From the IMG/VR virus record IMGVR_UViG_3300020205_005029, positions 1 to 29,586 of that record: DNA of 29,586 bases, one strand, 5' to 3'. Positions within the stretch are counted from its first letter, which is position 1. Each line of letters starts with the position of its first letter. Source of the DNA: a virus. Under the pieces are notes generated by a model, which did no database searches, was not told the origin of the DNA, and was given only the letters and a program-made list of their open reading frames with translations. Shown here piece after piece: positions 1,352 to 27,669 of this stretch. Position numbers and translations under genes: made by a program.

Positions 1352-1408
1352 TTATTATATTTCCACCACCACTTTTGGTGATATTAAATTCACATATACA
1401 ATAACAAA

Positions 1409-2915: not shown

Positions 2916-2916
2916 C

Positions 2917-2947
2917 TTGGAGATTAAAAATATTCTTCATACATTTA
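2917..2947 (+). promoter_or_regulatory. Putative Bacteroidota-type promoter upstream of folE
   Basis: CTTG (2916-2919), a 20-base spacer, then TACATTTA (2940-2947) closely match the Bacteroidota consensus TTTG-N19-21-TAnnTTTG. It lies in the 50-base gap before folE, 18 bases upstream of its ATG. The downstream stretch ACAAAATAATAAGTTATATG closely resembles the one before the glycosyltransferase at 17086. Confidence 0.55.
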
Positions 2948-2965
2948 TACAAAATAATAAGTTAT

Positions 2966-3664
2966 ATGTCAGAAAACAATCGTAAAAAACAGCACACAGA
3001 TTTAGAATGTGTAAAAATTGGTTTTGCAAATGGTGTTGCACCTGGTTTTCCACTTACCGAGAAAGAAAAGTGGGCAATGGTAGATGAAGCAGAAGAAGCT
3101 TATGGTAAGTTCTTAACTGCATTGGGTGTAGATTGGGAAAACGATCCAAACTCATCTGATACTCCACGTCGTGTAGCAAAAGCATATGTATTTGATTTAT
3201 TTGCAGGTCGATATACTGCAATGTCCGATATTACTTCATTCCCTAGTGATGGTTATGATGGTATTGTAATTGAACGAAATATTCCTGTTACTTCAATGTG
3301 TTCACACCACCACCAAACAATTGGAGGAGTAGTTCATATTGGTTATGTAGTTGGAAACGAAGGTAGAGTAATCGGCTTATCTAAATTGAACCGTATTGTA
3401 GAACTATTTGGTCGTAGAGGTGCTATCCAAGAACAATTAACTTCAGCAATCCATAATGCAGTAAACAAAATTTGTGAATTGAACAGAGGAGTAATCGTAA
3501 CTGTAGTAGCAACCCACAACTGTGTATCTTGTAGAGGTGTAAAACACCAAGGTGCTTCAATGGTAACTACAAAAGCATCAGGTGTGTTCTTGGAAAATGA
3601 TAATCAAGCACGTAAAGAGTTCTTCGATTCAATCAAAATCAATAACGGAGGACACCAGATATGA
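2966..3664 (+). CDS. folE: GTP cyclohydrolase I
   Basis: FolE opens the imidazole ring of GTP and forms 7,8-dihydroneopterin triphosphate, the first step towards 7-deazaguanines. The 232-residue protein has all family marks: DTPRRVAKAY (65-74), SMCSHHH (110-116) with zinc ligands Cys112 and His115, VIGLSKLNRIVELFGRR (135-151), IQEQLTSAI, and HNCVSCRGVKH (184-194) with the third ligand Cys186. The first 30 residues form a poorly conserved extension with many charges. It has its own promoter-like sequence and overlaps the next gene by ATGA. With QueD, QueE and the QueC-like protein it gives a pathway from GTP to CDG or beyond. Confidence 0.96.
   Translation: MSENNRKKQHTDLECVKIGFANGVAPGFPLTEKEKWAMVDEAEEAYGKFLTALGVDWENDPNSSDTPRRVAKAYVFDLFAGRYTAMSDITSFPSDGYDGIVIERNIPVTSMCSHHHQTIGGVVHIGYVVGNEGRVIGLSKLNRIVELFGRRGAIQEQLTSAIHNAVNKICELNRGVIVTVVATHNCVSCRGVKHQGASMVTTKASGVFLENDNQARKEFFDSIKINNGGHQI

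Positions 3665-8213: not shown

Positions 8214-8217
<4 letters not shown>
7861..8217 (+). CDS. Hypothetical protein with AT-hook-like N-terminus
   Basis: A 118-residue soluble protein of unrecognised family. Residues 4-12 (TKRRGRPAR) contain the GRP core flanked by basic residues typical of AT-hooks that bind the minor groove of AT-rich DNA. The rest includes EPFYIVKDATNFTVMER (about 29-45), a Gly/Ser-rich loop and a helical C-terminal half (IQEYLNTWNTVKEGMESMLNKLEI). The stop overlaps the groES start by four bases (ATGA), so it is probably co-translated with the chaperonin genes. The 68 bases upstream are very AT-rich with no clear promoter. Confidence 0.75.
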
Positions 8218-10149
<1,932 letters not shown>

Positions 10150-10431: not shown

Positions 10432-10443
10432 ATATTTATAATT
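10432..10443 (+). promoter_or_regulatory. Putative late-type promoter motif before 10444
   Basis: ATATTTATAATT lies immediately after the terminator and directly before ATG 10444. It shares the ATATTTATAA core with the sites at 11402 and 14315 and resembles the T4 late -10 box (TATAAATA). Only the repeated occurrence supports it. Confidence 0.3.
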
Positions 10444-11403
10444 ATGAAATTGACAGACATTCTACGCGAAATCGAAGGAGAAGAAGATGGTATGCAACAA
10501 GTAAAGGTTCGTTATGACCTTGCTGTTGAACCTGCTGATCTCGACAAAGCATTAGCTGCTTTAAACGATCCTAAAACATATGGTATCTACGCACAAAATA
10601 TGCGAGATCCAAAAGCTATTGTAAAAGCATTCGGACCTTCAATTCCTGCACAAAAAGCAGGAGCTGCTTGGAAAGATTGGGATTCTCGCTCAGATGATGA
10701 AAAAGCATTCAAAATAATTGATATCAAAAACAGAGTACCTGAAGCATGGGCTAAAGCAGAAGCTGAAGCAGAAGCAGGCTATGAAAAATGGCAAGCAGAA
10801 GGAAACGATGGTAATTTAAACGACTATTTATTTTCACTCTCAGGTAAAGAACTTCCAAAAGACATTATCGGAAAATACGGAGCCAATTACTACCCAATGA
10901 AAACACCAGACAATTTGAAAAAATATGGTGGTAAATTGGAACAAGACATTCACTATGTAGTAAAAGATGGTAAAATTGTTTTTCCTTCAACACTAGAAAA
11001 TCCATATAAAACAAAACCATACTTGTCCAAAGTATTGAAAACAATTATGGACAATGCAAAAGTAGAATATACTTTAGTAGATATTGAACAAGATGGAGGA
11101 GAAGCACCAAAAACAGTAGAAAAACCAAAAGCTGATGCTGTACCACCATTATCTGTAACTGCGGATAGTTTAGATAAAATAGACAAAATCCGTAAAACAT
11201 TCCAAAAAGAAATTGGAGATGTACCTACAGCAAAATATGAAACTGAATCCACTAAAACAGAAGATGGAATTCAATATAAATTGGTTGTAACAGGTATTTC
11301 AAAAGACCAAAGACAAAAACTTTTAGTGAAAAAAGCTACATTGAAAGAGGAAATGGATTTTGATTTTGATTTATATAGAATGAAAAAATTAGCAGGACTA
11401 TAA
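10444..11403 (+). CDS. Unrecognised protein with head-targeting-like termini, 319 aa
   Basis: The family is not recognised. The N-terminus, MKLTDILREIEGEED, resembles the short Lys-then-hydrophobic leader ending in an acidic cleavage site found on T4 internal head proteins (general form MKxxxxFIxE). The last residues, DLYRMKKLAGL, resemble the RMQxLAGI motif that opens three nearby proteins. Between them lie an Ala/Glu-rich helical stretch (EAWAKAEAEAEAGYEKW, about 99-115), a region GANYYPMKTPDNLKKYGG, and two similar-looking alpha/beta segments (about 20-60 and 240-300, both with a KVRYDL/KYETES strand followed by a helix). Gene order and a late-type upstream motif suggest a structural or head-associated protein; this is inference. 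Confidence 0.75.
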   Translation: MKLTDILREIEGEEDGMQQVKVRYDLAVEPADLDKALAALNDPKTYGIYAQNMRDPKAIVKAFGPSIPAQKAGAAWKDWDSRSDDEKAFKIIDIKNRVPEAWAKAEAEAEAGYEKWQAEGNDGNLNDYLFSLSGKELPKDIIGKYGANYYPMKTPDNLKKYGGKLEQDIHYVVKDGKIVFPSTLENPYKTKPYLSKVLKTIMDNAKVEYTLVDIEQDGGEAPKTVEKPKADAVPPLSVTADSLDKIDKIRKTFQKEIGDVPTAKYETESTKTEDGIQYKLVVTGISKDQRQKLLVKKATLKEEMDFDFDLYRMKKLAGL

Positions 11404-11415
11404 TATTTATAAATA
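11402..11415 (+). promoter_or_regulatory. Putative T4-type late promoter before 11423
   Basis: AATATTTATAAATA includes an exact TATAAATA (11408-11415), the T4 late promoter box, eight bases before ATG 11423. The site overlaps the stop codon of the preceding gene. Transcription would start almost at the ATG. Confidence 0.45.
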
Positions 11416-11422
11416 AAATAAA

Positions 11423-11500
11423 ATGACACAAGAACAATTACGTATGCAAATGTTGGCTGGTATCATCACTGAAGGTCAATATAAAGCAATACTGAATGAA
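11423..11500 (+). repeat. Conserved leader-coding segment, copy 1
   Basis: Codes for the LRMQMLAGIITE leader. It shares a 23-base identical run (11441-11463) with copy 3 (15124-15146) and is clearly related to copy 2 at 14340. Confidence 0.8.
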
Positions 11501-11875
11501 GATGAGTATAATACCTCTCAAGCAGATGCACGTTTAGGAAAATTAGCTAACCGATTACTTCAATCTGTTTCTAACAGCACCGAGGTAAAAGGTAACGGAA
11601 CAGCCGAACTTGAAGAACTTGAACCAGGCTACTACATAATCAAAACTACCAAACCAGGTAAACTTTTTAAAAAAGCAAGAACCGGTGAGTTACACCTTTA
11701 TGTAGACGCTAATCCTGATACTCTTATCATGAAAACCATTATCAATGGAAATTATGAAGGAAAAGAAGCATTAGATTGGGGAGAAGGAATGTTTGCTGAT
11801 GACGATACTATTTACGAAAAAGTGCTTGATGAAGCTTTAAAAATGGCCATGTTTGTAATGCATTCACAAAATTAA
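11423..11875 (+). CDS. Shared-leader protein A (putative capsid-targeted), 150 aa
   Basis: The first 26 residues (core LRMQMLAGIITEGQY, 6-20, then LNE at 24-26) are nearly identical to the starts of the proteins at 14340 and 15106, while the remainder differs. I-T-E at 15-17 followed by Gly matches the (I/L)-x-E site cut by T4 gp21-type prohead protease. The body has a basic strand-rich segment (GYYIIKTTKPGKLFKKARTGELHLYVD, about 70-96) and a helical acidic C-terminus (WGEGMFADDDTIYEKVLDEALKMAMFVMH). No known fold is recognised. A late-type TATAAATA lies just upstream. I infer packaging into the head with removal of the leader; the function of the mature part is unknown. Confidence 0.8.
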   Translation: MTQEQLRMQMLAGIITEGQYKAILNEDEYNTSQADARLGKLANRLLQSVSNSTEVKGNGTAELEELEPGYYIIKTTKPGKLFKKARTGELHLYVDANPDTLIMKTIINGNYEGKEALDWGEGMFADDDTIYEKVLDEALKMAMFVMHSQN

Positions 11876-11879
11876 TGTA

Positions 11880-12233
11880 ATGGACAATTTTAATTTAAAA
11901 CAATACTTATCTGAAAACAAGCTAAACGAAGCTGAAGGTAGAAATTTATACAACACAGCTGGTCAAATGATCTCTCAAGTTGGATTATTTACCCAAGAAC
12001 TAGCAGACGAATTAGAAGCAGAAGATAGAGGAAATTTATATCGTTTCTTTGACACCCCAGAAGAAAAAGCTGAGTTAATCAAAATTTCAGAAGGATATCA
12101 AGTATACTTAGCTAAAGTAAAAACAATGATGGATGAATTAATGAGTGATCCAATGCACCAAGTTGCAGTAGGTGATGCAGGTAGAAATACCAATCCATTA
12201 GAAAAAGCTTATTATAGAGCAAAAAATATTTAA
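11880..12233 (+). CDS. Unrecognised helical protein, 117 aa
   Basis: Starts four bases after the stop of the previous gene. The N-terminus, NFNLKQYLSENKLNEAE (3-19), carries two (L)-x-E sites, LSE and LNE, and resembles a short head-targeting leader, though it lacks the LRMQMLAGIITE core. The rest is predominantly helical and acidic (LADELEAEDRGNLYRFFDTPEEKAELIKI; VYLAKVKTMMDELMSDP), ending in a basic tail. No family is recognised. It is followed directly by a terminator, closing the unit that began at 10444 or 11423. Confidence 0.7.
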   Translation: MDNFNLKQYLSENKLNEAEGRNLYNTAGQMISQVGLFTQELADELEAEDRGNLYRFFDTPEEKAELIKISEGYQVYLAKVKTMMDELMSDPMHQVAVGDAGRNTNPLEKAYYRAKNI

Positions 12234-12239
12234 ATAAAG

Positions 12240-12264
12240 AGCTTGCCTAGTGCAAGCTTTTTTT
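12240..12264 (+). terminator. Rho-independent terminator overlapping a promoter
   Basis: AGCTTGC (12240-12246) pairs with GCAAGCT (12252-12258) around the loop CTAGT, followed by a seven-T run (12258-12264). The 5' arm also contains the CTTG that forms the -33 box of the gp44 promoter. Confidence 0.8.
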
Positions 12265-12273
12265 GTATAATAC
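12242..12273 (+). promoter_or_regulatory. Putative promoter of the clamp-loader gene, embedded in a terminator
   Basis: CTTG (12242-12245), a 20-base spacer and TATAATAC (12266-12273), which ends four bases before ATG 12278. The -7 element fits TAnnTTTG only in its first half. The arrangement is the same as at 15846-15877. Confidence 0.4.
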
Positions 12274-12277
12274 GGTT

Positions 12278-13186
12278 ATGAAAGAAAATACGTTATATGT
12301 AGAACGTTTTCGCCCTACATCTTTAAAACATTTTGTTGGTAATGAAAATATCAAAGACACAATCCAAAAATACCTTGATCAAGGTGATATCCAAAACTTT
12401 ATTTTCTATGGCCCACCAGGCTGTGGGAAAACAACTCTAGCTAAAATCATCGTTAAAAATCTAGATTGTGATTATCTCTATATAAACGCATCTGATGAAA
12501 ACGGAATCGATACTATTCGAGAGAAAGTAAAAGGATTCGCTAGTGCTGCCTCTTGGAAAGGTATCAAAGTAGTAATCCTAGATGAAGCAGATTTCATTAC
12601 CATTCAAGGACAAGCCGCTTTACGAAACGTAATCGAGACATTTTCTCGCTCAACACGTTTTATCTTAACTTGTAATTTTGTAGAGCGAATCATTGACCCA
12701 CTCCAATCACGTTGCCAGGTACTTAAAATTGTACCACCAACAAAAATGGATGTGTACAACCATTTAACTTGGATATTAGCTGATCAATTGAGCTTGTCAT
12801 ATCAATCAGAGGATATCAAGTCATTGATTTTAAAGTACTATCCCGATATGCGTAAAATGTTAAATGTTTTACAAATGTCTGTAAAAGATGATGCTATTGT
12901 ACTTGATGAAACAGTATTGACCTCTACAAGTTATATTAAAGAGGTATTGAAAGAACTAGCAGGCAAGAAAAACTGGATTGCTATTAGACAAATTATAGCA
13001 GATTCGAATACAAAGGACTTTGAGGAACTATATCGCTCACTATTCGAATACAGTTCAAAATATGCCCCAGGTAAAGAAGGCTCCGTTGCAATTATCTTAA
13101 ACGAGCACCTTTATCAAGCAAATTTCCGAATTGACAAAGAAATTAACGTAATGTCTGCAATTGCTAAGATAATTGAAGTAATATGA
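12278..13186 (+). CDS. Clamp-loader ATPase subunit, T4 gp44-like
   Basis: AAA+ ATPase of 302 residues that, with the small subunit, opens the sliding clamp and loads it on primed DNA. Walker A GPPGCGKTT is at 45-53, Walker B VVILDEAD at 98-105, and the arginine-finger SRC motif at 144-146. The opening VERFRPTSLKHFVGNENI is typical of replication factor C/gp44. I chose ATG 12278 over an in-frame TTG at 12263, because the earlier start lies within the T-tract of the terminator and adds five unconserved residues. The gene overlaps the next by ATGA. T4 gp44 is 319 residues. Confidence 0.96.
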   Translation: MKENTLYVERFRPTSLKHFVGNENIKDTIQKYLDQGDIQNFIFYGPPGCGKTTLAKIIVKNLDCDYLYINASDENGIDTIREKVKGFASAASWKGIKVVILDEADFITIQGQAALRNVIETFSRSTRFILTCNFVERIIDPLQSRCQVLKIVPPTKMDVYNHLTWILADQLSLSYQSEDIKSLILKYYPDMRKMLNVLQMSVKDDAIVLDETVLTSTSYIKEVLKELAGKKNWIAIRQIIADSNTKDFEELYRSLFEYSSKYAPGKEGSVAIILNEHLYQANFRIDKEINVMSAIAKIIEVI

Positions 13187-13389
13187 AGCACCTATTAAGA
13201 TATACTCTTTCGTGGGTATCTCAAAATTTGACCATACCTTTCTGGACAATCGGTCATATCCACTTGATGACAACAATATATGCTGACATACATGAAATAT
13301 TAATGTCGCTTGGAATGAACATAATTGTGGCAGCTGGGTTTATAGCTGACTTTATAGATTATAGAAAAGATAAGTTAAACAATAAATAA
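13183..13389 (+). CDS. Small membrane-associated hypothetical protein, 68 aa
   Basis: Overlaps the clamp-loader gene by ATGA. The sequence has an aromatic N-terminal half (LLRYTLSWVSQNLTIPFWTIGHIHLM) and one likely membrane segment, ILMSLGMNIIVAAGFIADFI (39-58), followed by a basic end (DYRKDKLNNK). This suggests a single- or double-pass inner-membrane protein with its C-terminus in the cytoplasm. No family is recognised; position inside the replication genes does not reveal its role. Confidence 0.65.
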   Translation: MKHLLRYTLSWVSQNLTIPFWTIGHIHLMTTIYADIHEILMSLGMNIIVAAGFIADFIDYRKDKLNNK

Positions 13390-13395
13390 AACAAA

Positions 13396-13641
13396 ATGCA
13401 AGAACAACCTAGATTAAACATTGATTTTAAAAACACAACAGCCGTTACTGGTTTTGATGGTGGACAATTGTTTGGACAAGCAGTTATCCTACGTAAAGTA
13501 TCTAAATTTTTAATTGGAGCAGATGAAGATTCACTCATCCCAATCCCAGTATTCTATGATTTGGAAAGTAAGAAAATCATCTTAGATACACTTCCACCAG
13601 ACATTCGTGAAGAATATAAAGATATTGCCCTTGACCTCTAA
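13396..13641 (+). CDS. Hypothetical protein between clamp-loader genes, 81 aa
   Basis: A small, soluble, strand-rich protein: FDGGQLFGQAVILRKVSKFLIG (20-41) and LIPIPVFYDLESKKIILDTLP (47-67) look like two beta hairpins. Preceded by an A-rich start region (AATAAATAAAACAAAATG). It overlaps the small clamp-loader gene by 35 bases if that gene starts at GTG 13607. No family is recognised. The place corresponds to where T4 keeps regulatory genes near 44-62, but no RegA similarity is visible. Confidence 0.7.
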   Translation: MQEQPRLNIDFKNTTAVTGFDGGQLFGQAVILRKVSKFLIGADEDSLIPIPVFYDLESKKIILDTLPPDIREEYKDIALDL

Positions 13642-14065
13642 GAAGCAAATAAAAGATATATGGGGGTGGTTGAATGAAATCACCCTCTATAAAACTCCCA
13701 TCGAAAATATTTCCGAAGAATCATGGGACAAATGGAACTCTTACATGATACATCGATATGTATCTATGAATATAAATTATGTTGAACTAGCTAATTATGT
13801 TCAAACTCTACCATACGAGAACAAGCAACAAACATATACAATTTATAGAGAGATGATTCCAAAAGCAAAAACGTTCTTGAAGTATGTCAAGTCAAGAACA
13901 AAGAGACAGCCTGCAACGTTGGTAGAGTACGTAGCAAAATATTTTGAATGCAGTTTAGGCGAAGCAGAAGAGTATATTGACCTTTTACGCGAACATGGTG
14001 TACGACAAGTGTTGTACTCTATGGGTATAGAGGATAAAGAAGTAACTAAGTTATTAAAGAAATGA
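13607..14065 (+). CDS. Clamp-loader small subunit, T4 gp62-like
   Basis: The segment WGWLNEITLYKTPIENISEESWDKWNSYMIHRYVSMN (about 19-55) is the hallmark of gp62-type proteins, the subunit that joins the gp44 tetramer into the clamp loader. The rest is helical, with a winged-helix-like end (LVEYVAKYFECSLGEAEEYIDLLREHG). No ATG lies upstream of this segment, so the start must be GTG 13607 or TTG 13625 or 13631; the GTG is given. The length of 152 residues compares with 187 in T4. The stop overlaps the next gene by ATGA. Order is 44, two small genes, 62, unlike the adjacent 62-44 of T4. Confidence 0.85.
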   Translation: MKNIKILPLTSKKQIKDIWGWLNEITLYKTPIENISEESWDKWNSYMIHRYVSMNINYVELANYVQTLPYENKQQTYTIYREMIPKAKTFLKYVKSRTKRQPATLVEYVAKYFECSLGEAEEYIDLLREHGVRQVLYSMGIEDKEVTKLLKK

Positions 14066-14316
14066 CCGCAAATAGAGAAACATTTGGAACAAACCCAAAC
14101 AACCCCCTTCAAACAAGATCAATCCACAAAACAGATTCAATTGTTGATTCAGTAATTGATCAATTTGTAAGTAGAGCCCGCTTTGGAAAAGAAAAATATG
14201 GTACTGATCTAGACAGAAATGATTTAAGTGTTTTAGATTGGATCGAACATGCCAAGCAAGAACATATGGATGCCATATTGTATTTGGAAAAACTTGAACG
14301 AATACTAAAGGGCTAA
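14062..14316 (+). CDS. Small MazG-like nucleotide hydrolase family protein
   Basis: The 84-residue protein contains RARFGKEKYGTDLDRNDLSVLDWIEHAKQEHMDAILYLEKLE, the pattern of a short phage protein family related to MazG-type all-alpha NTP pyrophosphohydrolases; the HAKQEHMDAILY helix carries the metal-binding-like Glu and Asp. The first 20 residues are unstructured and polar. It overlaps the gp62-like gene by ATGA. Activity and substrate are inferred from family resemblance only. It is the second MazG-like protein of the window, the other being at 3661. Confidence 0.7.
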   Translation: MTANRETFGTNPNNPLQTRSIHKTDSIVDSVIDQFVSRARFGKEKYGTDLDRNDLSVLDWIEHAKQEHMDAILYLEKLERILKG

Positions 14317-14330
14317 TATTTATAATAAAA
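14315..14330 (+). promoter_or_regulatory. Putative late-type promoter before 14340
   Basis: AATATTTATAATAAAA overlaps the stop codon of the preceding gene and lies nine bases before ATG 14340. It is almost identical to the site at 11402, which also precedes a leader-bearing gene. Confidence 0.4.
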
Positions 14331-14339
14331 TACTTTAAA

Positions 14340-14417
14340 ATGAATAAAGAAACTTTACGCATGCAAATGCTTTCAGGTATAATCACAGAAGGTGAATATG
14401 CAGCTGCTATCAACCAA
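14340..14417 (+). repeat. Conserved leader-coding segment, copy 2
   Basis: Codes for LRMQMLSGIITE. It is more diverged in DNA than copies 1 and 3, with silent changes throughout, while the protein is kept. Confidence 0.75.
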
Positions 14418-14843
14418 GAAGTTGAAGAAACTGAAAAAGATTCACTTAATGAACACTACGTTGTAGGAGGAATTGTAGGAATTGGAGCTGTTAATCAAAT
14501 CCCATCTCGCGCTAAAGCAGATTATGAAGATGCTTTTGAACATTTCTTAGGTCAAAAATATGAGTTGAAAGAAGAAATCAACGAAGAAGAAATGGGTGAA
14601 AATATAGCTGATTTTTTAAATCAAAATATGGATGAAATTACATCTCAATTAGGTGATGTTTTTTCTAACTTTGAAACCATGGGTGATCCAAAAGTAGCAA
14701 CTGCTGGTGATGGAGAAGAAGGTATAGATATTTCTTTTGATAAAGAACATATGTTAGAACTTTTCCCTGAAGGGGATCCATATAATGAAGTAGAATCAAT
14801 AGATATAGCAGGTAAAACTGTTTATTATAATGATTATCGTTAA
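14340..14843 (+). CDS. Shared-leader protein B (putative capsid-targeted), 167 aa
   Basis: Begins with the same leader as the proteins at 11423 and 15106 (LRMQMLSGIITEGEY, residues 6-20), with the I-T-E prohead-protease-like site at 15-17. A second L-x-E (SLNE, 35-38) follows. After it comes a Gly-rich hydrophobic stretch (HYVVGGIVGIGAVNQIP, 39-55) and then a strongly acidic helical body (YELKEEINEEEMGENIADFLNQNMDEITSQLGD; FDKEHMLELFPEGDPYNEVESIDI). No known domain is recognised. The acidic composition would suit a protein packed inside a head against DNA counter-ions or a DNA mimic, but neither is shown. Confidence 0.8.
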   Translation: MNKETLRMQMLSGIITEGEYAAAINQEVEETEKDSLNEHYVVGGIVGIGAVNQIPSRAKADYEDAFEHFLGQKYELKEEINEEEMGENIADFLNQNMDEITSQLGDVFSNFETMGDPKVATAGDGEEGIDISFDKEHMLELFPEGDPYNEVESIDIAGKTVYYNDYR

Positions 14844-14860
14844 TACTTTCAACTACTAAT

Positions 14861-15094
14861 ATGAACCCAAAAGACGTAATCACAGTAGATGTTCCTCTAT
14901 TTATTCGTTTACTCGAATACGCTAGAGAAGATGCCCAAACAGACATGGATTTACATGATGTGGCAGACAATATCATCTCATTAGCATCTTCAGGTAAAAC
15001 GTTAACAATGGACGACTATAGTTCTATTGTTGGATCTCAAGAAGAAATAGATGAAATTCGAAGAATGCAAGTTAGAGCTGGCATTATAAAATAA
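14861..15094 (+). CDS. Hypothetical protein with C-terminal leader-like motif, 77 aa
   Basis: A small acidic helical protein: VPLFIRLLEYAREDAQTDMDLHDVADNIISL (11-41) followed by KTLTMDDYSSIV (46-57). It ends EIRRMQVRAGIIK, which echoes the RMQMLAGII core of the shared leader, here at the C-terminus. It lies between two leader-bearing genes. No function is known to me. The repeated motif suggests it goes to the same place as its neighbours, or binds the same partner. Confidence 0.75.
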   Translation: MNPKDVITVDVPLFIRLLEYAREDAQTDMDLHDVADNIISLASSGKTLTMDDYSSIVGSQEEIDEIRRMQVRAGIIK

Positions 15095-15105
15095 AATAAA
15101 ACAAA

Positions 15106-15183
15106 ATGAATAAAGAACAACTCCGTATGCAAATGTTGGCTGGTATTATTACAGAGAGTCAATATAAATCTCGTTTAAATGAA
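15106..15183 (+). repeat. Conserved leader-coding segment, copy 3
   Basis: Bases 15124-15146 are identical to 11441-11463 (23 bases). Flanking codons differ mainly by silent changes. Confidence 0.8.
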
Positions 15184-15735
15184 ATGTCTATAGATGACAC
15201 ATTTAAAGCTGAAAAACTTGCTAATCAAGAGGTAAGTGATTATATTTCTAAAAATAATTTAGGTTCTGCAAAAAATGTTGAAAGATTAATGAATGTTTCC
15301 TATGAGGAAGGAAGAAAAATTATATCTAGGGTAACTTTATCAACAGGAGAAATACTTTATTTTGAAACCATATATGGTTCCGATTTAAATTTAATTAGTA
15401 TTAAACAAGTAGGTAATCCTTATGATTTCCCTACCAAAAACCCAAGAAAAACCAAAAGTAAAATCCCCGGAATTACTCTAAAAGTTAATAAATCAAGCGG
15501 TGAAGTCAACATGTCAAGTAGTAGTGGTGACTACGATAGCTTTATTGAAGATGATGGTACAATAAGTTTTGCAGTTGTAGATGACAACATGGATGAAGAA
15601 TTTAATGATGATAATTGGAAAGATATTTTAGGGAATGATCACGCATTTGTTAAAATAGCAAATACTATTCCTACAGAAATAGAAGCATTTGATGATTACG
15701 TACAAATTACTATTAAGGCAAGTGATTTAATGTAA
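15106..15735 (+). CDS. Shared-leader protein C (putative capsid-targeted), 209 aa
   Basis: Starts with LRMQMLAGIITESQY (6-20) and LNE (24-26), the third copy of the leader; its leader DNA has 23 bases identical to that at 11423. The body is mixed: a helical part (FKAEKLANQEVSDYISKNNLGSAKNVERLMN), a strand-rich part (GRKIISRVTLSTGEILYFETIYG), a basic proline-containing linker (FPTKNPRKTKSKIPG, about 108-122), a Ser-rich stretch and an acidic end with a strand (YVQITIKASDL). No domain is recognised. The upstream ATTATAAAATAAAATAAAACAAAATG resembles the late-type sites. Confidence 0.8.
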   Translation: MNKEQLRMQMLAGIITESQYKSRLNEMSIDDTFKAEKLANQEVSDYISKNNLGSAKNVERLMNVSYEEGRKIISRVTLSTGEILYFETIYGSDLNLISIKQVGNPYDFPTKNPRKTKSKIPGITLKVNKSSGEVNMSSSSGDYDSFIEDDGTISFAVVDDNMDEEFNDDNWKDILGNDHAFVKIANTIPTEIEAFDDYVQITIKASDLM

Positions 15736-16859: not shown

Positions 16860-17057
16860 ATGAGTGAAAAAAATCAACAATTAACAAGCGTCAAACTAGA
16901 CAAGGATCTGTTTGAGCAATTTAAAGTAGAGTGCATTAAACGAAAATTTAGCTTCCAAAAATTGAGTGAACGAGCTGTTCACCTTTATTTAACAAGCGAT
17001 GATTTCAGAAAACAAATTCATAATCACAGTGATTTGAATTTGGCCATTGAAGAGTAA
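16860..17057 (+). CDS. Ribbon-helix-helix protein, 65 aa
   Basis: A short protein with the pattern of an Arc/CopG/ParG-type ribbon-helix-helix: strand LTSVKLDKDL (8-17), helix FEQFKVECIKRK (18-29), turn, helix SFQKLSERAVHLYLTSD (31-47), then a polar tail. Such proteins dimerise and insert the ribbon into the DNA major groove. The promoter of the following 12.5 kb glycan operon overlaps the end of this gene (17039-17070), so a regulator of that operon is an attractive but untested idea. The upstream 42 bases are AT-rich (ATAATAATAAAATAAAATTTATG). Confidence 0.7.
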   Translation: MSEKNQQLTSVKLDKDLFEQFKVECIKRKFSFQKLSERAVHLYLTSDDFRKQIHNHSDLNLAIEE

Positions 17058-17070
17058 TTTCTTACATTTA
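17039..17070 (+). promoter_or_regulatory. Bacteroidota-type promoter of the glycan operon
   Basis: TTTG (17039-17042), exactly 20 bases, then TACATTTA (17063-17070); this is the best match in the window to TTTG-N19-21-TAnnTTTG. It lies partly within the end of the ribbon-helix-helix gene, 15 bases before ATG 17086. Confidence 0.6.
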
Positions 17071-17085
17071 AAACAAAATAGTTAT

Positions 17086-18525
17086 ATGAATTCAAGTTTT
17101 AAGTACTTACCGCAAAACGAGCGGAAAAAAATCATGCTTATTTGCGACGACATTCGAGTACACTCAGGTGTAGCAACAGTGGCCCGTGAATTAGTTTTGA
17201 ACACAGCCCAACATTTTAATTGGGTAAACATTGCAGGTGCAATTAAACACCCAGAACAAGGTAAACGTTTTGATATCTCCCAAGATACAAATACAAATAC
17301 GGGTTTAACCGACGCCTCTGTTTTCCTTTATCCAGTGGATGGATATGGTAATCCTGATTTGATTAGACAATTAATTGCAATGGAAAAACCAGATGCAATT
17401 ATGCTAATTACTGATCCACGTTATTTTGAATGGTTATTTCAAATTGAAAACGAGATTAGAAAAACAATGCCAATCATTTATCTTAACATTTGGGATGATT
17501 ACCCAGCTCCATTGTATAATAAAGCATTTTATGAGTCATGTGATGCATTGTTAGCAATTTCAAAACAAACTAAATTAATCAATGAGCTTGTTTTAGGTGA
17601 GAAAGCAAATAAGAAAGTAATTGAATATGTTCCTCATGGTTTAAATCATGAAATGTATTATCCAATTGAGAAAGAAGATGAATTGAAAGAACTTGAACAG
17701 TTCAAATCTCATTTATTTGGAGGTAAAGAAAAGGATTTTGTTGTATTCTTTAATTCAAGAAACATCAGACGTAAACAAATTCCTGATACAATGTTAGCTT
17801 TTAAAATTTTCTTAGATACATTACCAAAAGAAAAATCATCTAAGTGTGTTATGATTATGCATACTGAAGTAATAAGTGAACATGGAACTGATTTAGAAGC
17901 AGTACGTAAAATTTTATTTCCTGATTATCCTGAAGCAATTTATTTCTCTCAAAATAAGTTAGATAATAAACAATTAAACCAATTATATAATATTGCAGAT
18001 ACTCAAATCTTATTAACATCAAATGAAGGTTGGGGTCTATCATTAACAGAAGCAATATTAGCAGGAACTGTTATTATCGCTAACGTAACAGGTGGAATGC
18101 AAGACCAAATGGGATTTGAAGATGAATATGGAAATTGGTACACACCATCTCCAGAAATTCCTTCAAACCATACAGGAAGATATAAAAACCATGGTGTATG
18201 GGCATTCCCCGTATTCCCAACTAACCGTTCAATTCAAGGTTCACCTAAAACTCCATATATTTGGGATGATAGATGTAATGCAGAAGATGCAGCTGCTAGA
18301 ATTTCTGAAGTATATGCTTTGGATAAAGAAATACGAGATGGTCTTGGTAAAACAGGTCGTCATTGGGCACTAAATGAAGCAGGCTTTACAGGTGAAGCTA
18401 TGGGAGAAAGAGCAATTAACGCGATAGATCAATTATTTAACACGTGGACTCCACGAGAAAAATATGAACTAATCAACGTTAATGACGTTAAAGAAGACAC
18501 AATTGATCACGAATTTGTATATTAA
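17086..18525 (+). CDS. GT-B glycosyltransferase (GT4-like)
   Basis: A 479-residue protein with the two Rossmann halves of GT-B enzymes: IMLICDDIRVHSGVATVAREL (about 16-36) is the N-terminal glycine-loop start, and NEGWGLSLTEAILAG (about 313-327) is the C-terminal E-x7-E motif (Glu314, Glu322) that binds the nucleotide-sugar. YVPHGLNHEMYYP and FFNSRNIRRKQIPDTMLAF are typical hinge segments. It would transfer a sugar from a nucleotide donor with retention. ATG 17086 is preferred to the in-frame TTG 17047, which lies inside the previous gene and upstream of the promoter. It is the first gene of the glycan operon; acceptor unknown. Confidence 0.9.
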   Translation: MNSSFKYLPQNERKKIMLICDDIRVHSGVATVARELVLNTAQHFNWVNIAGAIKHPEQGKRFDISQDTNTNTGLTDASVFLYPVDGYGNPDLIRQLIAMEKPDAIMLITDPRYFEWLFQIENEIRKTMPIIYLNIWDDYPAPLYNKAFYESCDALLAISKQTKLINELVLGEKANKKVIEYVPHGLNHEMYYPIEKEDELKELEQFKSHLFGGKEKDFVVFFNSRNIRRKQIPDTMLAFKIFLDTLPKEKSSKCVMIMHTEVISEHGTDLEAVRKILFPDYPEAIYFSQNKLDNKQLNQLYNIADTQILLTSNEGWGLSLTEAILAGTVIIANVTGGMQDQMGFEDEYGNWYTPSPEIPSNHTGRYKNHGVWAFPVFPTNRSIQGSPKTPYIWDDRCNAEDAAARISEVYALDKEIRDGLGKTGRHWALNEAGFTGEAMGERAINAIDQLFNTWTPREKYELINVNDVKEDTIDHEFVY

Positions 18526-18531
18526 AAAGTT

Positions 18532-19824
18532 ATGGACAAACCAGTATTTGTAATTAGTTGCCCAATTGACACTTATAGTGGATATGGAGCACGTTCTCGC
18601 GATATCGTTAAAGCGATTATTGAAATGGATAAATACGATGTAAAAATCCTTTCACAACGTTGGGGAAGTACCCCATTTGGATTCATCCAAGACAACCCAG
18701 AATGGAAATTTTTAGTATCCCATTTACTCCAATCTCCACAATTACCAGCACAACCCGAAATTTGGATGCAAATTACAGTTCCAAATGAATTCCAACCAAT
18801 AGGAAAATTCAATATTGGATGTACAGCTGGAATTGAAACAACAGTAGCACCTGCTGAATGGATTGAAGGTTGTAGTCGAATGAATTTAATTCTAGGTTCT
18901 TCTGAACATACAATCAAAGTACTTAAAGAGAGTAAATTTGAAAAACGTGATCAAAAAACCAATCAAGCTGTAGGATTTATTGAATGGAAAGGAGATAGTG
19001 AAGTAATGTTTGAAGGTGCAAATACAGACATTTACAAACCAATTAAATCAACTTTTGATTTATCCAATGTAAAAGAAGAATTTGCTTATTTATTTGTAGG
19101 ACATTGGATTAATGGAAATTTGGGTGAAGATAGAAAGAATGTAGGTTTATTGATTAAAGCGTTTTATGAAACGTTTAAAAATAAAAGCAAAAAACCCGCA
19201 CTTATCTTGAAAACAACCCAAGTAGGAGCATCTTATATGGATAGAGATGAATTGATCAAACGTATTAAAGCAATTCGAGCTACAGTAAAATCAAATAACA
19301 TTCCAAACGTTTATTTGTTGCATGGTGAATTTACAGATGTAGAAATGAATCAAATTTACAATCACTCTAAAGTGAAAGCTATGGTTAGCTTGACTAGAGG
19401 TGAAGGATTTGGTCGACCATTACTTGAATTTTCACTTGTAAATAAACCAATCATTGCAACTAATTGGAGTGGACATACAGATTACCTTAACCCTGAATTC
19501 ACAACACTACTCCCAGGTACAATGACAAATGTTCATGAATCAGCTGCAAATCATATGTTAATGAAAGAAGCAGAATGGTTTAGTGTAGATACAGGTCATG
19601 TAGGTCATTATTTGAAAGATGTATTTGAAAACTATAAAGGATACGCTGAAAATGCTAAGCGACAAGGTTTTCAATCACGTACCAAGTTTTCATATGATGC
19701 CATGAAAGAAAAATTAGGTAAATTATTTGAAGAAAAAATCCCTGAATTTCCAAAACAAGTTCAATTACAATTACCTAAACTACAAAAAATTGAATTACCA
19801 AAACTTAAAAAAGTAGAACAATAA
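18532..19824 (+). CDS. GT-B glycosyltransferase (GT4-like) with repeat tail
   Basis: A 430-residue glycosyltransferase starting six bases after the previous stop. PIDTYSGYGARSRDIVKAI (11-29) is the N-terminal glycine-rich loop, EGANTDIYKP (161-170) the interdomain segment and TRGEGFGRPLLEF (288-300) the E-x7-E motif (Glu291, Glu299), followed by KPIIATNWSGHTDYL. The last 25 residues are a low-complexity tail with LPKLQKIELPKLKKVE repeating a PKL unit, which may bind a partner or the membrane. It overlaps the next gene by one base (TAATG). Acceptor unknown. Confidence 0.9.
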   Translation: MDKPVFVISCPIDTYSGYGARSRDIVKAIIEMDKYDVKILSQRWGSTPFGFIQDNPEWKFLVSHLLQSPQLPAQPEIWMQITVPNEFQPIGKFNIGCTAGIETTVAPAEWIEGCSRMNLILGSSEHTIKVLKESKFEKRDQKTNQAVGFIEWKGDSEVMFEGANTDIYKPIKSTFDLSNVKEEFAYLFVGHWINGNLGEDRKNVGLLIKAFYETFKNKSKKPALILKTTQVGASYMDRDELIKRIKAIRATVKSNNIPNVYLLHGEFTDVEMNQIYNHSKVKAMVSLTRGEGFGRPLLEFSLVNKPIIATNWSGHTDYLNPEFTTLLPGTMTNVHESAANHMLMKEAEWFSVDTGHVGHYLKDVFENYKGYAENAKRQGFQSRTKFSYDAMKEKLGKLFEEKIPEFPKQVQLQLPKLQKIELPKLKKVEQ

Positions 19825-20273
19825 TGCAACACGAAGAAATCATTAATTGTCCTAAATCCGGAGGTGACTTGTGCTATAAAGTACAAGTTGCCCCTGAAAT
19901 TTATAACTACATGAGTTTATCTTGTGGTTTTTGGACAAACTCATTTATGACTGAAGATCATGAATTTTATATGCAACAAATGGAAACATTACCTGAGTTG
20001 TATAAAGATTTAGCTTGGACTGATCCTCAAACAGGTTTGATTTGGTTACCAAATACTATCAATAACCCTGAACAAGGTATGATCTTTGCTAATGGAACAA
20101 ACTCAACTTCATGGAAATGGGCTGCTGTTAAAGCAATTGAAATTCCTGAAGGCGAAAGAAAAGAAGTTATGGGGAAACTCCAAACTCACAAAATGGATAT
20201 GAAGAACATGCAGCTTTTTGAAGAGCGTGATTATATTGAAGCTCTTTCATATATTGGAGTACTACCAAATTAA
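19824..20273 (+). CDS. Hypothetical protein in the glycan operon, 149 aa
   Basis: The family is not recognised. The N-terminus INCPKSGGDLCYKVQVAPEIYNYMSLSCGF (7-36) looks like a degenerate zinc ribbon, with only single cysteines where pairs would be expected. The middle is aromatic-rich (PELYKDLAWTDPQTGLIWLPN; TSWKWAAVKAIEIP) and the C-terminus helical (DMKNMQLFEERDYIEALSYIG). It is soluble with no signal peptide. Tight spacing on both sides places it in the operon, but nothing points to a sugar-related activity. Confidence 0.7.
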   Translation: MQHEEIINCPKSGGDLCYKVQVAPEIYNYMSLSCGFWTNSFMTEDHEFYMQQMETLPELYKDLAWTDPQTGLIWLPNTINNPEQGMIFANGTNSTSWKWAAVKAIEIPEGERKEVMGKLQTHKMDMKNMQLFEERDYIEALSYIGVLPN

Positions 20274-20278
20274 GATAT

Positions 20279-20926
20279 ATGAAAATAAGTTATGCCGTTA
20301 CAGTTTGCAATGAGTTTCTTGAAATACAGAGACTCATTACATTCTTATTAGAAAATAAAAGACCACAAGATGAGATTGTAGCCCAAATGGATCTTAATCT
20401 AGATGATCTTAAAAATCAACCAGAGGATAAGAACCAAGTGTTTGCTTATCTTATGAAACATCAAGAGCAAGGACATCTCAGAGTAATCTTTAATCCACTA
20501 AACAACGATTTTGGAGCATTTAAAAATCACCTTACCAACCAATGTAAAGGAGATTATATATTCCAAATTGATGCAGATGAATTACCTAATGAAAATCTGA
20601 TTGCTGTTTTACCTGAGTTGCTAAAAGAAAATAATGAAATTGATGTTTTTCTAGTTCCACGAGTAAACACAGTAGAAGGTTTAACTCAAGAACATATTGC
20701 AAAATGGGGATGGAGAGTAAACGATGAAGGTTGGGTTAATTGGCCTGATTACCAATGGCGTATTTGGAAAAACAAACCTGAAATCCAGTGGGTAAATAAA
20801 GTACACGAGCGTTTGGATGGCTTTAAGATGTATACAGCAATGCCAGATGTAGAATACTTTGCTTTATACCACCCAAAAACAATAGACAAACAAGAAAAAC
20901 AAAACAGTTATTACGACACATTATGA
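20279..20926 (+). CDS. Family 2 glycosyltransferase
   Basis: A 215-residue GT-A enzyme. ISYAVTVCNEFLEIQRLI (3-20) is the donor-binding start of family 2 and FQIDADELPNE (95-105) holds the DxD metal motif (98-100). The second half is short and includes WPDYQWRIWKNKPEIQWVNKVHERLDG, a pattern seen in GT2 enzymes that act on surface polysaccharides. It would use a nucleotide-sugar with inversion. Overlaps the following gene by ATGA. Confidence 0.88.
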   Translation: MKISYAVTVCNEFLEIQRLITFLLENKRPQDEIVAQMDLNLDDLKNQPEDKNQVFAYLMKHQEQGHLRVIFNPLNNDFGAFKNHLTNQCKGDYIFQIDADELPNENLIAVLPELLKENNEIDVFLVPRVNTVEGLTQEHIAKWGWRVNDEGWVNWPDYQWRIWKNKPEIQWVNKVHERLDGFKMYTAMPDVEYFALYHPKTIDKQEKQNSYYDTL

Positions 20927-21579
20927 GTTATATTGACAACTTACATGAATCAGAAGTTCAACGTAATTTAACTAGTAAAATTTGGAGATTTGATATTTTA
21001 AATTATTTAATTGATAAATATAAATTAATTAATTATCTTGAAATTGGTGTATTCAAAGGAGAAAATATTAGAGAAGTAAAAGCTTTTCATAAAGATGGAG
21101 TTGACCCTGGAGTAGAAGGCTATACCCCACCCGAAGTAAACTACCCTATGACATCAGATAAATTCTTTGAGTTGATTAAGGGACATGAAGATATCAAATA
21201 TGATATTATTTTTATAGATGGTTTACATGAATATTCTCAAGTAAAAAAAGATATTGAAAATTCACTCAACCATTTACAGCCAAATGGATTTATAGTAATG
21301 CATGATTGCAATCCTGTTAGTTATCAAGCTCAACTTCCAAATAGACAAACAGTAGCCTGGAATGGAGATGTGTGGAAAGCATTTGTTGAGTTTAAACAAA
21401 ACAATACAGATTATAAATGTTGTGTTGTTGATACTGATTTTGGAGTAGGGATTATTAAAAATAATTCAACCCCAATTCAAACAACTCCATTAATTAATAT
21501 GGACTATCAAACATTTGATTCCAATAGAAAAGATCATTTAAATTTAATTGCTTGGGATGAATTTAAAACAAATTATTAA
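20923..21579 (+). CDS. Class I SAM-dependent methyltransferase (Methyltransf_24-like)
   Basis: The 218-residue protein has the SAM-binding motif LEIGVFKGEN (39-48), FIDGLHEYSQVKKDIENSL (97-115) and GFIVMHDCNP (122-131), the usual order for the Methyltransf_24 group that often modifies sugars in polysaccharide clusters. From about this gene on, the DNA is richer in A/T runs than in the two preceding glycosyltransferase genes. Overlaps at both ends indicate coupling. A methylated sugar is the likely product; the acceptor is unknown. Confidence 0.82.
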   Translation: MSYIDNLHESEVQRNLTSKIWRFDILNYLIDKYKLINYLEIGVFKGENIREVKAFHKDGVDPGVEGYTPPEVNYPMTSDKFFELIKGHEDIKYDIIFIDGLHEYSQVKKDIENSLNHLQPNGFIVMHDCNPVSYQAQLPNRQTVAWNGDVWKAFVEFKQNNTDYKCCVVDTDFGVGIIKNNSTPIQTTPLINMDYQTFDSNRKDHLNLIAWDEFKTNY

Positions 21580-22351
21580 CCAATCAGTTTATGGTACAAT
21601 AGGTTATATTTCATCTCAAAATGATTTAAACCTATTAGAACAATATATCCTTTATAACTTACCTATTTTAAAAGAATATAAACAAATAATTGTCGCTACA
21701 AACTATTCTACTTTAGGATTAACTGATTCAAATTCACAGTTATGGAAAAAATATTTCCCTGATTGTATTTTATTAGATTCTCCTATTAATAGAGGCCATA
21801 ACATTGGAACTTCAGATTTAGATGATTTAATATTTGACTATTGTAAAGAAAATAATATTGAATGGCTTTGTAAATCTGCTAATGACGTTATTATTCAAAA
21901 AGATATATTGAATAAAGAAATAGAAGAAGCTGATTTTTATTATTTAAATGGAATGGGGTATGCTGGGGTTAAAATATATGATTTTGATCCTATTAGAATA
22001 ATAAATGAATATCTTATAGATCATTTTTATCCTCAAACAAATTTTTATTTAATTAACGTTTCTAAAACAGATTACTTAAATGATAAACAACATGTTGAAG
22101 AAGTTTATGAAAAATTTCAACAATCTAAAGGAACTGTTTGGGACCATGGATTCAAAAGTTGTGAAGGTTTATTAAGAGAATGTATTGAAAGAAATAATTT
22201 AAAAAAATACCATTTGATTACTAAAGAAAACTTTATTACATTGTTAGATGTTATATTGAAATACAATATACATGATGGTAGTCATAAAAATATAATGATA
22301 GAAAATGTATGTCATTTTCATTTTAGTGATAAATCTATAATTAAAATATGA
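21557..22351 (+). CDS. Probable glycosyltransferase-like protein
   Basis: The 264-residue protein begins with alternating strands and helices (GTIGYISSQNDLNLLEQYILYNL; YKQIIVATNY) and has WLCKSANDVIIQKDIL (about 104-119), where NDV could be the metal motif of a GT-A enzyme. No confident family call. ATG 21557 is preferred over the TTG at 21548; it overlaps the methyltransferase gene by 23 bases. Its position among glycosyltransferases supports the inference. It could instead be a sugar-binding or regulatory relative without activity. Confidence 0.6.
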   Translation: MNLKQIINQSVYGTIGYISSQNDLNLLEQYILYNLPILKEYKQIIVATNYSTLGLTDSNSQLWKKYFPDCILLDSPINRGHNIGTSDLDDLIFDYCKENNIEWLCKSANDVIIQKDILNKEIEEADFYYLNGMGYAGVKIYDFDPIRIINEYLIDHFYPQTNFYLINVSKTDYLNDKQHVEEVYEKFQQSKGTVWDHGFKSCEGLLRECIERNNLKKYHLITKENFITLLDVILKYNIHDGSHKNIMIENVCHFHFSDKSIIKI

Positions 22352-23328
22352 AAATAGCTTTTTTAACTGAAATGGGTTTTGAAGGAAAAATTCCCTCAAA
22401 CCACCCTAATATGAGAACAGAATTTGCTTGGATGTATGCTTTAGATGCTGAACATAAAAACATCCATACTTTCCCAACTATTCAAGGATATGATCATGTA
22501 TTTGTAATCTTTCCCAAAGGAAAAACATTTTTAAGTGCTGAAGGATCCTCTCTATCCAACCAACCCAACCCAGTATCTGGTTTACTTGCTTCTAATATAG
22601 TAGATGTTTTAAAACAAAACAATAAAAAAGTTTACTATATGCAAGAAGGCCCACATTGGTGGTATAATGACTATGAACTCCCAGATCAGATTAATTTCTA
22701 TAATTTGTTAGTAGGTTGTGATGCCATTTTTGCTCATAATGAATATGATACAATATACTATAAAGGATTAGTTCCAAATAAACCAGTTTATTCTTTACCT
22801 ACTCTTATGGTAGAAGATAATATATCTCATATTGTTCCTAAATATGAAGAAAAAGCTATTATAGGAGGTAATTTTGCAAGATGGTATGGTGGATTTGAAA
22901 GTTATTTAGTAGCTCAAGAATTTGGAGTTGAAATTTGGGGACAAACTTCTCATGCTATGAGAAATGGTGAAGAACAATTATTCAATCATTTACCTAGAGT
23001 AATGTGGAATGAATGGATTGAACAGTTAAGTAAATTTAAATATGCAGTACATTTGATGCCTACAATAGCAGCAGGTACATTTAGTTTAAATTGTGCTTAC
23101 CTTGGAATTCCTTGTATCGGAAACAAAAATGTAGACACTCAACGCTTATGTCACCCTGAATTATCAGTTGATATTGCTGATATAGAAAGTGCTCGAAAAT
23201 TAGCTAATAAATTAGCTACTGATCATGATTTTTATAAAAAATGTAGTCAAGAAGCTAAAGAAAATTACAATAGATACTATAAAATAGACTTGTTTAAGCA
23301 AAAGCTTTTTAGTATATTAAACTCATGA
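22348..23328 (+). CDS. GT-B-like glycosyltransferase
   Basis: A 326-residue protein with GT-B features: an N-terminal domain (MKIAFLTEMGFEG, then VYYMQEGPHWWYNDYELPDQINFYN) and a C-terminal one with YAVHLMPTIAAGTFSLNCAYLGIPCIGNKNVDTQRLCHPEL (about 231-271), equivalent to the donor-binding glycine/acidic segment followed by a 'take-over' helix. It ends with the usual long helix. The classical E-x7-E is not obvious, so the class is not certain. Overlaps its neighbours by ATGA on both sides. Confidence 0.7.
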   Translation: MKIAFLTEMGFEGKIPSNHPNMRTEFAWMYALDAEHKNIHTFPTIQGYDHVFVIFPKGKTFLSAEGSSLSNQPNPVSGLLASNIVDVLKQNNKKVYYMQEGPHWWYNDYELPDQINFYNLLVGCDAIFAHNEYDTIYYKGLVPNKPVYSLPTLMVEDNISHIVPKYEEKAIIGGNFARWYGGFESYLVAQEFGVEIWGQTSHAMRNGEEQLFNHLPRVMWNEWIEQLSKFKYAVHLMPTIAAGTFSLNCAYLGIPCIGNKNVDTQRLCHPELSVDIADIESARKLANKLATDHDFYKKCSQEAKENYNRYYKIDLFKQKLFSILNS

Positions 23329-23732
23329 AAAATGTAAAAATAGGAGATAATGTAACTATATCTCATTATACTAATTTATATGGATGTGAGTTAGGAGATA
23401 ACGTATTTATAGGTCCATTTGTAGAAATCCAATCCAATGTTAAAATTGGAAATAATTCAAGAATATCATCTCATAGTTTTATTTGCTCTGGAGTTGAAAT
23501 TGGAGAAGATTGTTTTATAGCTCATGGAGTTATGTTTACTAATGATAAATTTACTGAAGGCAGAGAAGAATGGATTGAACGATCTACAATTATTGGAAAT
23601 AATGTCCGTATAGGTTCTAATGTAACCATCCTCCCAGTTAAAATAGGAAATAATGTAGTTATAGGAGCAGGTGCTGTTGTGACAAAAGACATTCCAGATA
23701 ATACAACCGTTAAAGGAAACCCAGCAAAATGA
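23325..23732 (+). CDS. Left-handed beta-helix N-acyltransferase (WbpD/FdtC-like)
   Basis: At least six hexapeptide turns (for example IGDNVTIS, LGDNVFIGPF, IGNNSRIS, IGEDCFIAHGV, IGNNVRIGSN, IGNNVVIGAGA) form a trimeric beta helix. HGVMFTNDKF (66-75) is the extended loop typical of acetyltransferases acting on amino sugars of nucleotide-sugar substrates, such as WbpD/WlbB. The product is short (135 residues) and ends right after the GNPAK motif, without the usual helical tail. It probably acetylates the amino group installed by the DegT aminotransferase at 27670. Overlaps the next gene by ATGA. Confidence 0.88.
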   Translation: MKNVKIGDNVTISHYTNLYGCELGDNVFIGPFVEIQSNVKIGNNSRISSHSFICSGVEIGEDCFIAHGVMFTNDKFTEGREEWIERSTIIGNNVRIGSNVTILPVKIGNNVVIGAGAVVTKDIPDNTTVKGNPAK

Positions 23733-24505
23733 AAATAACAGTTATACACAATACATTTCGATTTAATCCATTAATTCGAGAATCGGTTATATTAAATTTA
23801 AAAGCATTACAAGATGCAAATGTTGATTACCAATATATTGTATTTAACGATAATGGAGACGTTGAAATTGAAAATGAAGTAAAAGATTTAGATATAGAAT
23901 ATTTTTACAGTGACTATAATTTTGGTCAAAAAATGTGCTCTGGAGGTTGGGTTGGAGCTTTACCTTTAGTTAAAGGAGATTTAATCCATAATACAGGCCA
24001 AGATGATGTATTTACTTCTTTCTTTTATAAAAATATAGTTGATATATTTAAAAAAACTAATTGTGATTTAGTTTATTGTAATGGGTTTAAAGTAGATGAA
24101 AGTCTTTGTATTACTGGGGAATTAATGGGGCCTACTCAAAATATAGACTATTCAAACCCAACCCTTCATTTTAACCATTGGCTTGGAGTCACCAATAATA
24201 AAATCACTAGAACTAATAATTTTATCCCAGCACCCGGAACAGTATATAAAGTTTCACTTCATGATGAAATTGGAAAACCTGATTTAGATAATTTTAGAGG
24301 TGTAGCTGATTTTGAATATTGGACTAGAGTTTTATTTTATAAGAAACATGTTCAATATATATCTCTTCCTTGCTGGCTTTATAGAATGTCTCAATATACA
24401 ACAACTTTAGAAGTAATTGATGGTAAATTAAATGAGAAAGATTTAGCTAGTTATTATTTAAATAAATTAAAAGAAAAATATCAAAAATTATTAGACAATG
24501 GGTAA
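23729..24505 (+). CDS. Probable family 2 glycosyltransferase
   Basis: The 258-residue protein has the GT-A N-terminus (MKITVIHNTFRFNPLIRESVILNLKAL), a predicted donor site HNTGQDDVFTSFF (88-100) with QDD as the metal motif, and a later segment RGVADFEYWTRVLFYKKHVQYISLPCWLYR typical of GT2 enzymes, where Asp before the aromatic pair is the general base region. Its stop overlaps the epimerase start by eight bases. Acceptor and donor unknown. Confidence 0.78.
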   Translation: MKITVIHNTFRFNPLIRESVILNLKALQDANVDYQYIVFNDNGDVEIENEVKDLDIEYFYSDYNFGQKMCSGGWVGALPLVKGDLIHNTGQDDVFTSFFYKNIVDIFKKTNCDLVYCNGFKVDESLCITGELMGPTQNIDYSNPTLHFNHWLGVTNNKITRTNNFIPAPGTVYKVSLHDEIGKPDLDNFRGVADFEYWTRVLFYKKHVQYISLPCWLYRMSQYTTTLEVIDGKLNEKDLASYYLNKLKEKYQKLLDNG

Positions 24506-26754: not shown

Positions 26755-26755
26755 G

Positions 26756-27664: not shown

Positions 27665-27669
27665 AAAAT

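Follow-up and report, generated by a model that had tools for sequence, protein, structure and literature searches.

We describe here a short peptide tag that is shared by otherwise unlike proteins of a T4-like virus and that, with a probability we put at about 0.8, targets them to the prohead by mimicking the C-terminal tail of the main scaffold protein. The DNA analysed (hereafter the window) is the whole of a 29.6 kb virus record; it is a genome fragment from a T4-like relative of Flavobacterium phage immuto. The original prediction had singled out three unlike proteins with a common start (encoded from 11423, 14340 and 15106), and had taken their shared leader, ending at an I-T-E site, to be a capsid-targeting sequence. 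All three open reading frames are present and begin with MTQEQLRMQMLAGIITEGQYKAILNE (11423), MNKETLRMQMLSGIITEGEYAAAINQ (14340) and MNKEQLRMQMLAGIITESQYKSRLNE (15106). I-T-E occupies residues 15-17 in every one of them, and the bodies are as diverse and unrecognised as had been supposed, with no convincing Pfam or PHROG family for any of the three. The common leader thus stands, but its proposed end at I-T-E does not: the shared unit spans about 26 residues and ends at L-N-E in two of the three proteins. Nor is it only a leader, as further copies that had been missed lie at the C-termini of two other proteins of the window (10444-11403 and 14861-15094). The relevant features of the window are as follows.

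10433-10441, plus strand: late-promoter-like element TATTTATAA, 5' of 10444
10444-11403, plus strand: C-tagged protein, 319 aa, ending DLYRMKKLAGL at the stop codon; tag at about 11368-11400
11404-11412, plus strand: late-promoter-like element TATTTATAA, 5' of 11423
11423-11875, plus strand: N-tagged protein, 150 aa; leader is residues 1-26 (11423-11500)
11880-12233, plus strand: protein with a second leader type, MDNFNLKQYLSEN; leader at 11880-11918
14317-14325, plus strand: late-promoter-like element TATTTATAA, 5' of 14340
14340-14843, plus strand: N-tagged protein, 167 aa; leader at 14340-14417
14861-15094, plus strand: C-tagged protein, 77 aa, ending EIRRMQVRAGIIK / IRRMQVRAGIIK at the stop codon; tag at about 15053-15091
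15106-15735, plus strand: N-tagged protein, 209 aa; leader at 15106-15183, with L-N-E at residues 24-26

The leader of the 11423 protein joins a tag core (RMQMLAGII) to the I-T-E site and to L-N-E at residues 24-26, and is conserved in other contigs. In the 14340 protein the leader is followed by SLNE (residues 35-38), a Gly-rich segment and a C-terminal module. The 15106 protein, used as a query, found 12 loci at which the match is mostly limited to residues 1-26. A DNA pattern for the leader occurs in at least 119 IMG/VR stretches and gives three matches in prokaryote genomes totalling 257 Gb: two are internal chance matches and one is real, lying on a Fluviicola MAG contig that carries two adjacent leader genes. 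These counts, set against each other and taken with the coverage of residues 1-26, imply that the leader is a phage feature of about 26 residues. Among cultured phages, tblastn found the leader in Flavobacterium immuto phages only. These phages are T4-like and possess gp20, gp21 and gp23, and a gp21-type protease, a scaffold and gp23 accompany the leader there (immuto gp070 matches phrog_207 at 6e-53 and gp066 matches phrog_138 at 7e-71); leaders and gp23 also co-occur in records G001 and G002. The gp21-like protease expected under the original prediction is therefore found in the relatives, but not in the window, a fragment from which the capsid genes are absent. Outside the tagged genes, the window carries QueD-, QueE- and FolE-like genes at 875-3664, suggesting 7-deazaguanine DNA modification as in the DpdA-encoding immuto, and a long run of glycosyltransferase, epimerase, aminotransferase and sugar-kinase-like genes at 17047-29338, which resembles an island in immuto.

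The resemblance to the scaffold is seen directly in immuto, in which the gene lying between gp21 and gp23, where T4 has its main scaffold gp22, encodes a protein ending in EIISEVSEQVSRWQKLAGIIK at its stop codon. The C-terminus of this presumed main prohead scaffold is RMQKLAGIIK, and the leader is a copy of that tail. The position is that of a gp22-type scaffold and the assignment rests on synteny; an hhalign comparison of the scaffold family with T4-type gp22 was non-significant (E=0.077 over 16 columns, LTExQKxxV). In 74 IMG/VR loci, found with immuto gp23, the ORF just 5' of gp23 ends in the tag motif or a near variant; 58 have the strict tail pattern, and most of the others depart from it slightly, as in RMQILAGIIKQ and RMQKLANIK. 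Across 15 related genomes and records, a relaxed form of the motif falls mostly at the very end of the scaffold or close to the N-terminus of other proteins, and few occurrences are internal. The scaffold tail is also present in several related genomes that have no cargo bearing this (type-1) leader. RWQ is present in both the scaffold tail and the leader of records G016 and G023, which is suggestive of co-variation of tail and leader within one genome, but L186 does not follow this pattern. A full-text literature search for the tag motif found no paper.

The leader set was gathered by motif patterns, so that conservation within the leader is partly by construction. A profile of the scaffold tail is free of this limitation, having been built from 12 columns of 42 unique scaffold tails, all from other contigs and including no leaders, and run on all ORFs. 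Among the 122 ORFs of the window its top five matches are, in order, 15106, 11423, 14861 (C-terminal), 14340 and 10444 (C-terminal), with scores from 26.6 to 17.0, and the sixth ORF scores 7.2. The top matches in immuto are gp083, the scaffold and gp230, with scores of 38 for gp083, 31 for gp230 and 13 for the next unrelated protein. Of 500 profiles with permuted columns, none yielded five window ORFs scoring at least 17 and only 4 yielded any such ORF, indicating that the motif in the window is not a product of chance. When 81 leader proteins were aligned with the scaffold family by hhalign, only the last 15 columns of the scaffold aligned (E=1.6e-7).

The C-tagged proteins 14861 and 10444 each have about 30 distinct homologs, most of which retain a C-terminal AGIIK tail despite their divergence. 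On the body side of the tag there is I-D-E in 14861 and L-K-E in 10444. The body of 14861, C-tagged in the window, is N-tagged in L039, where it forms the C-terminal part of the protein, and BLASTP between the two returns two permuted segments, one matching body to body and the other matching C-terminal tag to N-terminal leader. In L230 and L107, likewise, the C-terminal module of 14340 stands by itself with a leader of its own. Pairs such as 14861/L039 and 14340/L230 imply that the tag changes ends while the cargo is unchanged.

An (L/I)-x-E site at the end of the shared peptide is a feature of the T4 capsid targeting sequence (CTS) that recurs here. Alignment of the major capsid proteins of this clade with that of T4 (cut at FLTE/A, the slash marking the cut) places their own putative cut at [IL][VI][STAKV]E/[AQVT], and the IITE of the leader fits the resulting [IL][VI]xE. 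In a set of 22 leaders collected by a search that did not demand a cut site, 18 have [ILV][ILV][TN]E and four have no I-T-E or I-N-E directly after the tag. A second site of [ILV]xE type follows within 14 residues in 119 of 173 leaders, at residue +9 in 88 and often as L-N-E. The conserved GQYKAKL after I-T-E is unexplained if I-T-E is the sole cut, and cargo swaps between type-1 leaders and the second leader type described below break near L-N-E, not I-T-E, so that L-N-E is no less likely than I-T-E as the final cut. The claim that I-T-E is a T4-type protease site agrees with the putative capsid cut of the clade; in view of the swaps, the final cut may be at L-N-E, and both sites may be used. 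On the fit to these consensus sites, the gp21-type protease probably removes the tag by cutting at I-T-E and/or at L-N-E (residue 26). The C-termini of gp21 itself, examined at 52 loci, all contain [ILV]xE, often as SLNE, and the tails past SLNE (KYxRLxSIINxILRA) are loosely like the tag. From this likeness, the protease may enter the prohead via a tag-like tail.

The genomic context of the tagged genes also points towards head assembly. The element TATTTATAA or a close variant lies 5' of 88 of the 173 leader genes, compared with 4-10 in shuffles, and is mostly 9-19 nt from the start. Within the window it precedes 3 of 38 starts, all of them of tagged genes (10444, 11423 and 14340; Fisher p=0.0012), and since 14861 and 15106 come after 14340 in one gene run, the 14317 element probably serves all three. 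The element is commoner in the structural half of the immuto genome, for example at portal, sheath and tube genes, than in the early half (p=0.002). Over its first eight bases it is the reverse complement of the T4 late promoter TATAAATA, and TATTTATAA is likely to be the late promoter used by these phages. Tagged genes also occur inside the gp21-gp22-gp23 region itself (L180, L182, L186 and L203). The capsid targeting originally proposed is well supported, albeit indirectly, by the identity with the scaffold tail, the gp21-type protease and gp23 of the relatives, the tagged genes of the capsid cluster and the late-promoter-like elements.

Clustering by body sorts the 173 unique leader proteins of related phages into 89 groups, of which 69 have a single member. 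Most bodies are acidic, with a median pI of 4.6, and none was recognised in comparisons with Pfam, PHROGs and PADLOC, the best of the scattered weak PADLOC matches being at 1.7e-5 (LeoBC). By analogy with T4 IPI, an anti-defence effector role for the bodies is possible. The 14340 protein belongs to a cluster of 55, many of which are polyprotein-like and consist of leader, variable insert, SLNE, Gly-rich HYVAGGIVGIGAINQIP and exchangeable modules, some set apart by further L-N-E sites. In L043:5896-6312 (and in L064 and L077) the leader precedes a basic stretch, a hydrophobic segment and a lipobox-like Cys, so that this tagged protein is a possible lipoprotein cargo.

Besides type 1 there is another N-terminal leader, M(D/E)NFDLKK(F/Y)L(V/A)EN, borne by 29 distinct proteins, including 11880 in the window and gp076 of immuto. 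This leader, M(D/E)NFDLKKFLVENKLT in 11880-12233 and in immuto L003/L004, ends in L-x-E. Eight of the 29 type-2 proteins have bodies in common with type-1 leader proteins; in the best pair (L057 and L007; 74.5% over 157 aa) the homology begins right after each leader. One record, G018, has a type-2 protein and no type-1 leader. The type-2 sequence is possibly a second targeting leader.

From the scaffold-tail identity, the modularity, the interchange of ends, the gene context, the promoter-like elements and the fit to the protease consensus, all of them read from sequence, we infer the following route for tagged cargo. The terminal helix and hook of the scaffold (xxRMQKLAGIIK at the stop codon) would bind a prohead partner during head assembly; the inside of the gp23 shell is the likeliest candidate, with the core itself as the alternative. 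Cargo with the same helix and hook, whether N-terminal (helix, AGII, T-E) or C-terminal (usually a terminal AGIIK), would take the same site and so be built into the prohead by docking where the scaffold itself docks. Cleavage by the gp21-type protease would come next and fall between tag and cargo, at I-T-E and/or L-N-E for an N-terminal tag and at the (I/L)-x-E before a C-terminal one. The cargo would thereby be freed inside the head, and ejection into the next host may follow, with a possible effector role. The AF2 model of 14340, which is of low confidence (pLDDT 56), has a leader helix at residues 3-12, a turn and a helix at 17-38; that of 14861 (pLDDT 81, with moderate confidence for the tag) has a C-terminal helix at 60-73 and a GIIK hook. 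A fold search with the 14861 model returned uncharacterised phage proteins only and nothing significant in the PDB.

The main rival to a cargo function is a role in the prohead core or in head size, in which the tagged proteins would be accessory scaffolds that compete for or fill scaffold sites, the tag still targeting the prohead and the bodies acting only in assembly. This is possible but doubtful: some tagged genes do lie among core genes, the bodies are acidic like the scaffold, and SaPI1 CpmB alters capsid size with such a tail (PMC5644958), yet 89 dissimilar body types, their absence from some genomes and the lipoprotein-like body of L043 fit accessory cargo better. We regard as unlikely a scheme in which the tag recruits proteins to another late partner common with the scaffold, for example the gp21 protease or the chaperonin of the phage, for processing or folding and not for packaging. 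The gp21-type cut sites that flank the tag and the phage GroES/GroEL genes (8214-10149) near the tagged genes would suit it, but tag and cut site are separable, the C-terminal tags ending in GIIK with the site on the opposite side, and the scaffold and the tagged genes of the capsid region point to the prohead.

Two explanations that dispense with the head altogether carry still less weight. The GIITExxYxxKL of the leader looks SHOCT-like by eye and SHOCT is weakly matched by 2 of the 81 leader proteins (E 0.01 at best), as might be expected of a generic helix-turn-helix oligomerisation module, but such a module would leave the scaffold-tail identity unexplained, and we consider it very improbable. 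SHOCT (PF09851) was also rejected as the identity of the leader, the one located match covering residues 92-104 of L043, off the leader and below the cut-off. Least probable of all is that the similarity reflects inherited DNA, with gene starts recombining as units of promoter and start region and the peptide functionless. The leader DNA of 11423 and 15106 is indeed 85% identical over 75 bp within the window, and sequence 5' of leaders is also conserved, but this explanation is contradicted by protein-level conservation in distant contigs and by the C-terminal copies.

Prohead targeting by scaffold mimicry, our preferred reading, makes the tagged system a variant of the T4 CTS kind for which a specific origin and mechanism can be proposed. 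The T4 CTS of IPI-IPIII is also a short N-terminal peptide on unlike small proteins that ends in (I/L)-x-E, and in T4 too the ip genes are not part of the capsid cluster and scaffold and prohead protease occur in the same phage type. The T4 CTS targets mainly via residues 4 and 7, and the internal proteins co-purify with gp22 (PMC9026906); this i, i+3 pair is paralleled by M8 and L11 of the leader. There is no sequence identity between the T4 CTS and the type-1 leader, the likeness to IPI-IPIII being limited by eye to spacing, and the second leader type (MENFDLKKFLVE) looks closer by eye to the T4 internal-protein leader. Here, unlike in T4, the tag copies the scaffold C-terminal tail, sits at either end and is found on dozens of body types, most of them acidic, whereas T4 internal proteins are basic. 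T4-type gp22 proteins (T4, Vibrio, Acinetobacter and cyanophage scaffolds) have a short C-terminal tail with one invariant Tyr, which is possibly an equivalent docking helix, and we hypothesize that the T4 CTS also mimics the gp22 tail. The 80alpha scaffold and SaPI1 CpmB have tails with an 11-residue helix and a RIIK hook, and these tails share one mode of binding to the capsid protein (PMC5644958). There, as here, a second protein bears the C-terminal helix and hook of the scaffold, and the tails here end in xIIK; CpmB is nonetheless a single size-determination protein, tagged at its C-terminus only, and is not a protease-released cargo, and no homology is claimed. In phage P1, the N-terminal 30 residues of DarB suffice for packaging of a reporter (PMC9024508), again an N-terminal capsid targeting signal, but the Dar proteins lack a consensus, scaffold mimicry is unreported for them and P1 apparently has no separate scaffold.

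The binding partner and origin of the T4 targeting peptide are not settled in the literature covered, and the scaffold-tail match offers a directly testable answer. With this match, a simple sequence profile can also serve to catalogue candidate cargo of the head in environmental phages; the list already runs to 173 unique proteins of 89 body types, some of which may counter host defences. In engineered packaging in phage P22, cargo is fused to the scaffold, and the scaffold-tail tag would, if our reading is true, be a natural counterpart of this. More tentatively, capsid targeting sequences across T4-like phages may in general be portable mimics of the scaffold C-terminal helix. In this clade the mimicry would be near-exact, so that a tag at either end could make any protein head cargo, giving an open-ended and fast-evolving injected set freed by the prohead protease. 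A large group of T4-like phages appears to load its heads with many unrelated small proteins, each bearing a copy of the scaffold tail, which suggests how head-targeting signals may arise.
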